Origin: Pseudomonadota bacterium
GTDB taxonomy: Bacteria > Pseudomonadota > Alphaproteobacteria > Rhizobiales > Hyphomicrobiaceae
DNA length: 5,352 nucleotides
NCBI GenBank assembly: GCA_021813195.1
Contig: JAKALI010000349.1
Span: 1-5,352, forward strand
Direction: 5' to 3'
Under the pieces are notes generated by a model. That model was given only the letters and a program-made list of their open reading frames with translations. It searched no databases and was not told where the DNA came from. Below, piece after piece: positions 266 through 5,275 of the stretch. Position numbers and translations under genes: made by a program. The stretch's first letter is position 1. Every line of letters starts with the position of its first letter.

Positions 266-982
266 TTAGCTCTTCAGCGCTTTTCCTGACAGAGCCCGTG
301 GGAAAAGTATGTTGTTTTCCTTGTGAATGTGCTCATGCAGGTCACGCTCAAAGTTCTCCAGCCCGTCAAGCAAAGCCCGGTAGGTGTTGCAAGCCCAGTC
401 CGGTGGCGAGTAGCTGTCCGTAATGCGCCGCAGAGTCGCCAGGGCCTCACCCGCCTGTTCATGCTCCGATTCCATCTGCCGGATCGGCGCCGCAACTGTC
501 AGCCGGTGCGATCCGTTGCCTCCTGCGCCGTCGAGTTCCCGGATCAGGGGGAAGAGGATCCGTTCCTCTTTCATCATGTGACTGGTCATTTCCGTGGCAA
601 GACCGTCGAAAGTGTCGCGCACGGTGAGCAAGCGCGCGTCACGCTCTCCATGGACCGAGGCCACTTTTTCCGCCAATGTGCGCAGCCGTGGGGTCTCCGT
701 CTTCACGAAGACGTGGTGTGTCTGCTCAATGTGATCGGCGAGGGCGATTAAAGACATGGTGGCCGGGTCAACCCGTGGAGGAGTGCCTGAGGCCCGACTG
801 CTCTCCTCGGCCAACTGTGACAGCACTACCTGCGGGTCGAGCGATCGGCTCCGACAGGCATCGTCCAGCGACACCTTCCCGCCGCAACAGTAGTCGATCC
901 CAAGAGTTTCAAAGACCCGTGACAGACGGGGTTCCTGTGTCACGATCTCGCCGACGGTTTGATTGCTTTCAAATCGATTCAC
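266..982 (-). CDS. ric: RIC/YtfE/ScdA-type di-iron iron-sulfur cluster repair protein
   Basis: This 238-residue cytoplasmic protein belongs to the RIC (repair of iron centres) family, which restores iron-sulfur clusters damaged by nitric oxide or oxidants. Residues 1-60 form the ScdA N-terminal domain with the hallmark DYCCGG motif (30-35). Residues 75-235 form a hemerythrin-like four-helix bundle. Likely di-iron ligands, placed by analogy with E. coli YtfE, are H89 (or H90), H135 and E139 of the HMMKE motif, H174, and H218 and E222 in the HIHKEN segment. Length is close to the usual 220-245 residues. I chose a GTG start because AAGGGAGA (995 to 988) lies five bases upstream and the family N-terminus begins there; the longer in-frame ATG at 1114 would overlap the upstream gene. 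It is the last gene of the probable tetR-DUF6448-ric operon, 52 bases after the preceding stop. Symbols ric, scdA and ytfE are all used for this family. Confidence 0.93.
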   Translation of the reverse strand: MNRFESNQTVGEIVTQEPRLSRVFETLGIDYCCGGKVSLDDACRSRSLDPQVVLSQLAEESSRASGTPPRVDPATMSLIALADHIEQTHHVFVKTETPRLRTLAEKVASVHGERDARLLTVRDTFDGLATEMTSHMMKEERILFPLIRELDGAGGNGSHRLTVAAPIRQMESEHEQAGEALATLRRITDSYSPPDWACNTYRALLDGLENFERDLHEHIHKENNILFPRALSGKALKS

Positions 983-1034: not shown

Positions 1035-1661
1035 CTAATGAACGTGTTCTTGTTCTGTGGCCGGACGGGCATGCGACTCGCCCTTTCCCAGGTATTCGTG
1101 CAATCCTTCCACAAAATGCACGTAGGTGACGTACGCTTCGACGAATTCGCGGCCCTGCGCTACGGATTCATCCTTATGTTTGCTCTGTTCGTGGGCGTGA
1201 TTAAACCGTGCGATGATGCCGGCGCGAACGGCGCTGGCTACACTGTCGGCGAGCGTGTGCACGTTTCCGGATTCCATCGCCTGGTCAGCCGCCACAAGAA
1301 TCGGAGGGATACTGCCGGCTGGTTTCAGACCGGTGAACGGGGCACCCTCTGCCGCGCGGTGTACACGGACGAAGGTCTCCATGAACAGTTGATCTGCAAT
1401 CGGGCGTGCCTCTTCTGACTGAACTCGAAGGGCGCGTACTTTTTCAGACAGACTCTTGATCTGAGCTTCATCGGCGGGCGTGATCCATTTGAGCAAAGGC
1501 GTGATATCTCCCCCGGCGAGAGCCGTCCGAATGGACGTGATGATGGGTCCATCCTCGGAATCGCAGTGCGCTTGCGCCGGTCGGCTCATCAAGAGGACCG
1601 CGCCGATCATCAGGACCTGGCTTACGACCGCAAGCCCGCGTGTTAATTGATTCTTCTTCAT
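1035..1661 (-). CDS. Exported DUF6448-family protein, possibly metal-binding
   Basis: This 208-residue protein has a clear Sec signal peptide: basic MKKNQLTR, a hydrophobic core near 10-25, and an AQA cleavage site (29-31). The predicted mature form starts His32-Cys33-Asp34. The layout matches what I recall of DUF6448: an HCDxxDGP start, a central VHRAAEGAPFTGLKPAG segment (100-116), then helices rich in His and Glu (NHAHEQSKH 154-162; EAYVTYVHFVEGLHE 175-189) and a short His-containing tail. The family has no established function that I know of. An all-helical exported protein with a metal site is an inference. The start is firm: AAAGGAGG (1675 to 1668) lies six bases before the ATG, the best ribosome-binding site here, suggesting strong expression. 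The gene lies between the TetR gene (64-base gap) and ric (52-base gap), so a stress-response role tied to Fe-S repair is plausible. No lipobox is seen. Confidence 0.85.
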   Translation of the reverse strand: MKKNQLTRGLAVVSQVLMIGAVLLMSRPAQAHCDSEDGPIITSIRTALAGGDITPLLKWITPADEAQIKSLSEKVRALRVQSEEARPIADQLFMETFVRVHRAAEGAPFTGLKPAGSIPPILVAADQAMESGNVHTLADSVASAVRAGIIARFNHAHEQSKHKDESVAQGREFVEAYVTYVHFVEGLHEYLGKGESHARPATEQEHVH

Positions 1662-1675
1662 GACAAACCTCCTTT

Positions 1676-1691
1676 GATTGACAGTCCAATC
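1676..1691. repeat. Small inverted repeat upstream of the DUF6448 ribosome-binding site
   Basis: GATTG (1676-1680) and CAATC (1687-1691) are perfect complements separated by six bases. On the transcript the hairpin would sit directly before the AAAGGAGG of the DUF6448 gene. It could help set relative expression within the operon, for example by protecting a processed 5' end. A five-base stem is also common by chance, so this is weakly supported. Confidence 0.2.
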
Positions 1692-1725
1692 TCCGAAAAC
1701 GAACAAGCATCAATCGGCACCGGCA

Positions 1726-2340
1726 TTACCTCCCGGCGCCGCTGTTACCTATCAGGGCCCGTTCCAGAAGTGTCCATGTGCGCGCGGTCAAATCCGCGTC
1801 TCCGGCGGCCCGGCCGGAACGAATCCGCATGTGACCAATTGCGTGAATGGCGCCCAGTACGAGTAGCGCCCCATCTGCGGGTCTCACGTCGTCAGCCAAA
1901 AGCCCGTTTCCCGCCGCTTTGTTCAGGCAACCGATCACGAACCGTTGTGATCTCCGTTTCAATTCGTCAAGGCGCTCCGCTCGCGCCGGTGAGTTGAGGT
2001 TTGGAACCAGGCCTTGGGTCAGCAGAAGCCGGGAGACCTCAGGATGCTTTCGCATCACGTTTACCCGCTTCTCAAAGAAGAGGCGCAAGGATGTGATCGG
2101 ATCGGCGGCATCTGGAGGAAAGTCTGCAAAGATGATTTCTTCGATGCGGTCCACGATCGCGTCGAGGGTTTCCTCCAGGGATGTGAGGTGGCGGAAGATG
2201 GTGCCACCGCTTATCCCGATTGCCGCTCCCAATCGTTCGGCTGTGAACTGGCGCGACCCGTCGTCTGCGAGAATGCGCATGCCGGCCGCGACGAGTTCGT
2301 GGCGGCGGACTTCCGTCGATTTGCGTGTTGGCTCTGTCAT
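1726..2340 (-). CDS. TetR/AcrR-family transcriptional repressor
   Basis: This 204-residue protein has a typical TetR N-terminal DNA-binding domain at about residues 11-70. The helix-turn-helix spans about 33-54 (TAERLGAAIGISGGTIFRHL), with the usual GGTIFRHF-like recognition helix and the following 'LEETLDAIVDRIEE' helix. The C-terminal half (about 75-200) is the variable helical ligand-binding and dimerisation region, so the inducer cannot be read from sequence. I start at the ATG at 2340, which has AGAGG about five bases upstream. An in-frame TTG at 2358 lies inside the operator palindrome and is less likely. A perfect 18-base palindrome 17 bases upstream of this start is the probable operator, so the protein should repress itself and the two genes downstream. 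With a DUF6448 gene and ric as targets, the signal is plausibly linked to oxidative, nitrosative or metal stress; that is inference. Confidence 0.9.
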   Translation of the reverse strand: MTEPTRKSTEVRRHELVAAGMRILADDGSRQFTAERLGAAIGISGGTIFRHLTSLEETLDAIVDRIEEIIFADFPPDAADPITSLRLFFEKRVNVMRKHPEVSRLLLTQGLVPNLNSPARAERLDELKRRSQRFVIGCLNKAAGNGLLADDVRPADGALLVLGAIHAIGHMRIRSGRAAGDADLTARTWTLLERALIGNSGAGR

Positions 2341-2357
2341 CTTGCCTCTGATACGCA

Positions 2358-2375
2358 AGCAAGTATTTACTTGCT
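2358..2375. promoter_or_regulatory. Probable TetR operator, perfect 18-base palindrome
   Basis: AGCAAGTA-tt-TACTTGCT is a perfect inverted repeat with 8-base arms and a two-base spacer; two further complementary pairs (CG/CG at 2354-2355 and 2378-2379) flank it after two mismatches. It lies 17 bases upstream of the tetR ATG and overlaps the proposed -10 box. Size, symmetry and position are typical of autoregulatory operators of TetR-family repressors. Binding by this particular repressor is inferred from adjacency. Confidence 0.8.
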
Positions 2376-4789: not shown

Positions 4790-5275
4790 TCATGAAGTGA
4801 CTCGCCGCCAGATTCTCACTGCGTTTCCATGATCTCCGATAACCGTGTCGGTCACATACTCCTTTTGAAACCACGCTTCGTGCGTGAACAACTCGACCGG
4901 TGAGCGCGGAGGCTCGATGAACATCAAGTAGGCGGGACGATACTCGCGGATGTACCAACTGTACTCGCCGCGCCGCAAATGATCGACAACGTCAGGTGTG
5001 ACCAGCCCGGCGCCGTCGATGATCGGTCCCTTTTCGTAATAGAAGCACAGAACTCCGATATCGTTGGCGCCAACTGATGTGCCGCCGGGCACTCTGGCAT
5101 TCAGCCATTCGGCGGCAAGTTCATGGGTGCCTTTTCGCTCTGTGGCCGGCATTCGCGATACAGTCAGAGGCAGCATGACGGCGACGAGTGTTAGCCCGGA
5201 TATTTCATGAGCACGCCTGTGGGCATCGGAGTGGGTGCGGACTGATTGGATTTTGGCATTTCGGTGCTTTGATGG
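4790..5275 (-). pseudogene. C-terminal remnant of an ArnT/GT39-like membrane glycosyltransferase
   Basis: The frame is open from a TGA at 5278-5276 to the stop at 4790; the first ATG is at 5176, giving 128 residues. It encodes one hydrophobic helix (ISGLTLVAVMLPLTVS, 5203 to 5156), then a soluble domain with HELAAEWLNARVPGG, GANDIGVLCFYY, 'IIDGAGLVTPDVVDHLRRGE' and an EYRPAYLMFIEP strand. From family knowledge this order (AEWL..PPG, NDIG, D..GL..P, R..YL..) is the periplasmic C-terminal domain of polyprenyl-phosphate-dependent membrane glycosyltransferases, which normally follows about a dozen membrane helices. Those helices are absent: the codons before the last helix are polar, and no frame in the remaining 74 bases at the edge is hydrophobic. 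It therefore looks like a 5'-truncated remnant, perhaps cut by rearrangement. Alternatively it is a small independent membrane-anchored protein, but no ribosome-binding site precedes the ATG. The family call is from motif memory. Confidence 0.6.

Follow-up and report, generated by a model that had tools for sequence, protein, structure and literature searches.

DUF6448 proteins carry a conserved His-Cys end directly after a predicted export signal and are often encoded near nitric oxide-related genes

Why would a protein with a predicted export signal, encoded between a putative regulator and an iron-sulfur cluster repair protein, start its mature chain with His-Cys, and what could such an end be for? 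This question is raised by a stretch of 5,352 nucleotides (the window, from contig JAKALI010000349.1 of the Hyphomicrobiaceae assembly GCA_021813195.1), whose minus strand displays an operon-like run from a TetR-like gene (2358..1726) through a DUF6448 gene (1661..1035) to a RIC gene (982..266). The initial annotation had proposed that the mature N-terminus of the DUF6448 protein resembles the nickel hook of Ni-superoxide dismutase (NiSOD) and that signal peptidase could expose it as a metal site outside the cytoplasm. The open reading frame itself was described correctly in strand, coordinates and residues, with A29-Q30-A31 followed by H32-C33-D34-S35-E36-D37-G38. The features of the locus are listed below, mature numbering being the window residue minus 31.

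1726..2358, minus strand: TetR-like regulator directly upstream of DUF6448; weak PF00440 match (20.8 bits, below the cut-off of 24)
1668..1672, minus strand: Shine-Dalgarno-like GGAGG before the DUF6448 ATG
1035..1661, minus strand: DUF6448 (PF20046) gene, 208 aa, ATG at 1661..1659 and stop at 1037..1035; Pfam match
1569..1661, minus strand: signal peptide, residues 1-31, ending A-Q-A, with predicted cleavage (from the sequence and an AxA-type pattern in relatives)
1545..1568, minus strand: mature N-terminus H1-C2-D3-S4-E5-D6-G7-P8 (344-sequence alignment)
1344..1361, minus strand: HRAAEG motif with mature His70 and Glu74, candidate ligands at a helix end (alignment and model)
1107..1118, minus strand: H151-x-x-E154 of the last helix (alignment); a second subfamily has its His at 154 instead
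1038..1079, minus strand: C-terminal tail with several His and low model confidence (alignment and model)
266..982, minus strand: RIC (ScdA/YtfE), iron-sulfur cluster repair di-iron protein (TIGR03652, E 1.4e-74; ScdA_N and Hemerythrin in Pfam)

The RIC gene starts with a GTG at 982, leaving 52 nt between it and DUF6448, while the TetR-like gene, which may alternatively start at an ATG at 2340, is found at the same position in loci L004, L117 and L118. Elsewhere in the window, positions 4790-5176 of the minus strand hold a 128-residue open frame without Pfam match.

The window protein matches PF20046 over the whole profile (positions 1-147 of 147; E 7.6e-52; 175.6 bits for a cut-off of 27), and no paper naming DUF6448 or PF20046 was found in the literature searched. 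One homologue search with this protein gave 1764 catalogued relatives; among the matches listed (the best 120 of 1764), the closest named relative, with 77% identity, belongs to a candidate division Zixibacteria bacterium. The profile scored over cut-off in 18/132, 3/398, 9/198 and 7/148 genomes of four phyla, each count including a centre genome chosen as a carrier of the gene (three genomes so chosen in the 132-genome set), and in none of 14 control genomes. One locus (L076:6661-8516) contains two tandem DUF6448 genes.

We then asked whether His-Cys-Asp always follows the signal cleavage site, and found H1-C2(-D3) conserved through the family; a loss of His and Cys among relatives, which would have refuted the initial annotation, was thus not observed. 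The H, C, D, G and P of the N-terminal motif were in place in all 120 listed homologues (the best 120 of 1764, which are close kin). Since the PF20046 profile matches the window protein only from residue 37 (mature Asp6), after H-C-D, loci found with this profile are independent of H-C-D: 32 of the 34 distinct frames of such loci nevertheless read HCD, the two others being L128 (QCD) and L139 (a fragment without N-terminus), and leaving out the frames also found in the motif-pattern scan gave 28 of 30. A second sequence set was drawn with L119, the most divergent-looking copy at hand (best 120 of 717 matches), and the pooled alignment comprised 344 distinct sequences once duplicates and fragments of less than 130 residues had been removed. 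The counts in this alignment were 341 for H1, 342 for C2, 339 for D3 and 343 for each of G7 and P8. His1 was missing in L128 (Gln1), in P0332 (which reads HCL and is misaligned) and in P0343 (N-terminus absent), and both His1 and Cys2 were kept in all relatives with a readable N-terminus except L128. Judged from these alignments, the conservation of the motif is far beyond chance. The L128 frame (1245-2055, minus strand) is a divergent copy in which further conserved residues are missing as well; it may be a paralogue whose site has been altered or lost.

The position of this motif relative to the export signal was evaluated on the 222 sequences that have 12 or more residues ahead of the His. 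An AxA-type pattern fitted predicted cleavage exactly before the His in 216 of them, while the same loose rule fitted at most 87 at any other offset upstream of the motif and up to 140 within it (cleavage before residue 8); a strict A/V-x-A rule gave 171/222 before the His and no more than 15 at any other offset tested. We infer from these patterns that the signal is cut directly before His1. Cys2 was the sole Cys in the first 175 residues of 231/236 and 88/108 members of the two subfamilies described below and, since it mostly stands alone, an internal disulfide is not its usual role. A lipoprotein reading was rejected: a lipobox has a small residue before its Cys, which His does not fit, and Cys2 is preceded by His in the window and, with one exception (Gln), in every readable member of the 344-sequence set.

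Residues of the protein body turned out to be just as conserved. Trp28, His70, Arg71, Gly80, Gly139 and Tyr146 were found in 344/344 sequences of the pooled alignment and Glu74 in 343/344. The last helix divides the family into two subfamilies: 236 of the 344 sequences have His151, with Glu (231), Asp (3) or Lys (2) at position 154, and 102 of the other 108 have His154, one helical turn on, so that a His is present at one of the two positions in 338/344 and at neither in 6/344. Two other positions switch together with this His, Lys to Ile at 27 and Asp to Glu at 95. A model of the mature window protein (from 111 sequences) displayed seven helices with a mean pLDDT of 95.3 and a pTM of 0.74, following an earlier full-length model (33 sequences) with values of 87.1 and 0.62. 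Since mature residues 4 and 82 are the only two marked as strand or bridge in both models, the modelled structure points to an N-terminus lying against the loop that follows Glu74. Taken as a conservation pattern, H1, C2, His70, Glu74 and H151/H154 point to a putative N-terminal His-Cys metal site.

A His1 exposed by signal removal has been recognised before as a mark of metalloproteins, in a 2025 study that sought secreted metalloproteins with signal peptides to which a His was appended (PMC12537917). That study reports His as the first residue after signal cleavage in 2.6% of cases (SignalP 6.0 training set; Eukarya according to the figure legend). It also reports that DUF4198, DUF6702 and two anglerase families bind metal, with His1 in 79% of DUF4198 and 65% of DUF6702 sequences (PMC12537917). 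DUF6448 proteins have the same attributes, a signal directly before a conserved His1 and further potential ligands in Cys2, His70, Glu74 and His151/154. As in DUF4198, DUF6702, Ang-1/Ang-2 (PMC12537917), CopC and the histidine braces of LPMOs, signal peptidase would expose the His1 chelate while other candidate ligands come from the body. By that study's description, DUF6702 and the anglerases share a beta-sandwich and DUF4198 has another fold (PMC12537917), whereas the DUF6448 model is helical; DUF6448 also differs from DUF4198 and DUF6702 by having His1-Cys2 in nearly all sequences examined, with an added thiolate, and by its NO-type gene context.

This gene context is the new result here. 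We examined 111 distinct loci, often on short contigs (the window, 80 from the motif-pattern scan and 30 that profile searches gave with flanks of 1.5 kb), and scored six NO-type families: hemerythrin, RIC, NO reductase (NOR), NorC, flavodiiron and Hcp. Genes of these families made up 47 of the 522 ORFs located at most three ORFs from DUF6448 versus 6 of the 542 ORFs further out, counts that are uncorrected for kinship, include a few near-duplicate loci (e.g. L074 and L080) and come from neighbour profile models seeded from clusters at all positions. Near and far hits were 18/0 for hemerythrin, 10/0 for NOR, 5/0 for flavodiiron, 3/0 for NorC, 7/4 for RIC and 4/2 for Hcp. Taking only the four families absent further out gives 36/522 versus 0/542 (Fisher p 4e-12), but this choice of families was made with the table already in view, so the total over all six is the fairer measure. 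Families were assigned from Pfam scans of representatives: three of five NOR-labelled ORFs contain the NorB cytochrome c-like domain, and the other two are truncated at the 5' end and have a COX1 match alone. The Pfam Hemerythrin domain alone was found in 18/134 adjacent same-strand ORFs versus at most 1/134 distal ORFs on either strand (it is absent from the 25 families listed there).

Looking at loci rather than ORFs, 33 of the 111 had a six-family gene within three ORFs (22/80, 10/30 and the window), or 34 when counting L118, where RIC is fused. Using 28 further distinct loci with flanks of up to 8 kb, which partly overlap the 30 short-flank loci, and seeds from L001-L080 and the window only, we found a NO-type gene within three ORFs or fused in 12 loci, and such genes in 17/162 near versus 3/187 far ORFs. 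Gene orders include Rrf2-DUF6448-hemerythrin-NorC-NOR (L168), Rrf2-hemerythrin-hemerythrin-DUF6448-NOR (L170), DUF6448-hemerythrin-flavodiiron-NOR (L013) and TetR-DUF6448-RIC (window, L004 and L117/L172). Two other genes were each seen beside DUF6448 in 7 loci, mostly on the opposite strand: a sigma-70/ECF-type gene (Sigma70_r2, r4; e.g. L071:7185-7724, minus strand) and a gene without Pfam match (e.g. L017:1279-1818, minus strand).

RIC and hemerythrins are gene neighbours of DUF6448 but belong to another family (TIGR03652 in the case of RIC/YtfE/ScdA), with di-iron chemistry. The association with RIC reaches natural fusions, since at least four protein clusters (P0121, P0122, P0123 and P0125; best 120 of 214 matches) have DUF6448, ScdA_N and Hemerythrin on one chain, and the genomic loci L118 and L119 contain a fused DUF6448-RIC frame. 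In these two loci, RIC may also be made alone, because the RIC ATG, which is in frame, has a Shine-Dalgarno-like AGGAG in front of it; in the P0125 fusion, on the other hand, the displayed linker is without Met, and the RIC di-iron domain would thus be exported and located outside the cytoplasm. Among 132 genomes from the same phylum as G002 (Zixibacteria type), 18 had DUF6448, 12 had ScdA_N over cut-off and 5 had both, a modest co-occurrence (Fisher p 0.012, uncorrected for kinship), and the two genes were adjacent or fused in 4 of these 5 genomes. RIC is normally cytoplasmic, so most DUF6448/RIC pairs cannot meet. The fusions and the nitric oxide gene context nevertheless bear out the earlier suggestion that the Fe-S repair neighbour is meaningful. 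For YtfE, the RIC of E. coli, a role as nitrite reductase in combination with co-regulated enzymes that consume NO has been reported (PMC9052748).

Altogether, we propose, with a probability of about 0.5, that DUF6448 is a Sec-exported, all-helical His-Cys metalloprotein of nitric oxide/nitrosative-stress defence, likely binding or turning over NO at an iron or copper centre. Signal peptidase I would cut the AxA-type signal exactly before His1, and the freed alpha-amine, the His1 imidazole and the Cys2 thiolate would then form one jaw of a metal site that ligands of the folded body, most likely His70, Glu74 and the last-helix His at 151 or 154, would complete. The protein would act on the external side of the membrane, next to hemerythrins, RIC, NO reductases and flavodiiron proteins, where NO (or a related small oxidant) would most likely be bound or turned over at the iron or copper centre. 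Of this proposal, the sequences show the signal for export, the residues that are conserved, the context of the genes and the natural fusions, while the cleavage, the metal, its ligands and the NO chemistry are inferred. Several observations speak against this reading: 77 of the 111 loci had none of the six families within three ORFs or fused, although 30 of the 111 had only 1.5 kb flanks; RIC and Hcp also occurred further out (4 and 2 times); L128 has Gln1; H151 is not universal; and RIC, being normally cytoplasmic, would mostly not meet the exported protein, may be made alone in L118 and L119 and shows modest co-occurrence with DUF6448. A bolder version, which we regard as tentative and doubtful, is that DUF6448 represents a new class of periplasmic NO-handling enzymes with mononuclear iron or copper held by an amine-His-Cys hook and by His/Glu of a helical fold to which the searches gave no solved equivalent, and that in some lineages it is fused to a RIC domain working outside the cytoplasm.

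The most serious alternative, although an unlikely one, is a periplasmic metal buffer or chaperone whose His-Cys tip and His tail would capture copper, nickel or iron and hand it over without any catalysis. Such roles have precedents in the 2025 study, which proposes metal transport or capture for DUF6702 and the anglerases and gives nickel as a metal bound by DUF4198 (PMC12537917), and many of the 33 aligned members have His-containing C-terminal tails. HlyD-type adaptor domains occurred in 3/134 adjacent ORFs, but equally in 3/134 distal ORFs, and the positional excess concerns NO-type genes and not metal transporters. Trp28, His70, Arg71, Glu74 and Tyr146 moreover vary as little as the tip does, and this suggests that the fold contains a specific site.

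A lone, nearly invariant exported Cys in NO-type gene clusters could also be a thiol-based sensor or carrier, in which Cys2 would be directly nitrosated or oxidised while the His and the acids tune its reactivity without any metal. We consider this rather improbable, since it leaves unexplained the near-invariant His at the free N-terminus and the one-turn displacement of the helix His. It is improbable too that His-Cys-Asp-x-x-x-Gly-Pro is a structural tip capping the first helix and fixing the fold or the processing site: Gly7-Pro8 do form the entry to helix 8-19, and the model is confident about the N-terminus (mean pLDDT of 89 over residues 1-10), but one would expect a cap to allow other residues at the end, and the 2025 study describes His and Cys as rare at mature N-termini (PMC12537917).

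The initial annotation had compared the mature start with NiSOD, which ligates nickel via His1, Cys2 and Cys6 (PMC5722923). Sequence, predicted cleavage and the 344-sequence alignment agree that a NiSOD-type His1-Cys2 start is present in DUF6448, and the likeness extends to Gly7. NiSOD is also a helical protein, as is the DUF6448 model. Kinship and a common nickel hook, on the contrary, find no support: position 6 of DUF6448 is D, N, S, A, E, G or V and never Cys in 343 relatives (one gap; n=344), Pro5 is absent from the window protein, and His70, Glu74 and the helix His are extra. As a reference, 20 NiSODs were extracted from planctomycete genomes with a slightly looser version of the HCxxPCG pattern (20 loci of 31 matches), and all 20 read HCxxPCG. 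An hhalign comparison of the 344 DUF6448 sequences with these 20 NiSODs (PF09055) detected no homology (probability 0.4%, E 0.15 over 13 columns), and a Pfam scan of the window protein gave no Sod_Ni match at E up to 0.01. PDB sequence and fold searches gave no convincing relative; NiSOD was absent from the fold lists, which is no proof of a different fold. A NiSOD relative with a modified nickel hook is thus very improbable, in spite of the shared H1, C2 and G7, the helical character and the existence of secreted NiSODs. On visual inspection, 11 of the 20 planctomycete NiSODs (L150-L160) seem to be Sec-secreted, their HC (in HC[EQ][VI]PCG) coming immediately behind the signal, so exposure of a His-Cys end by signal peptidase is apparently not peculiar to DUF6448. 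An exposed His-Cys metal site outside the cytoplasm, with H-C-D conserved after the signal, stands as the best reading of the mature start.

Superoxide reductase, with its Fe(His)4(Cys) centre, resembles DUF6448 in the logic of its His and Cys ligands and in its occurrence in anaerobes, but it has a beta fold and the ligand set of DUF6448 is putative. If the proposed exported His-Cys metalloprotein is confirmed, a family of 1764 catalogued relatives in one search would gain a testable function, and a thiolate-containing N-terminal metal hook would exist outside NiSOD. It would be an extra-cytoplasmic metal site built by signal peptidase itself, found in nitrosative-stress clusters of several bacterial phyla, and would place periplasmic-side NO chemistry next to the defence by RIC, hemerythrin and flavodiiron proteins. 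Directly upstream of DUF6448, a gene resembling a multihaem cytochrome c was also seen in L133 (2115-3347, minus strand; examined with Pfam), L010 and L047, the last two being Nitrospirae records.
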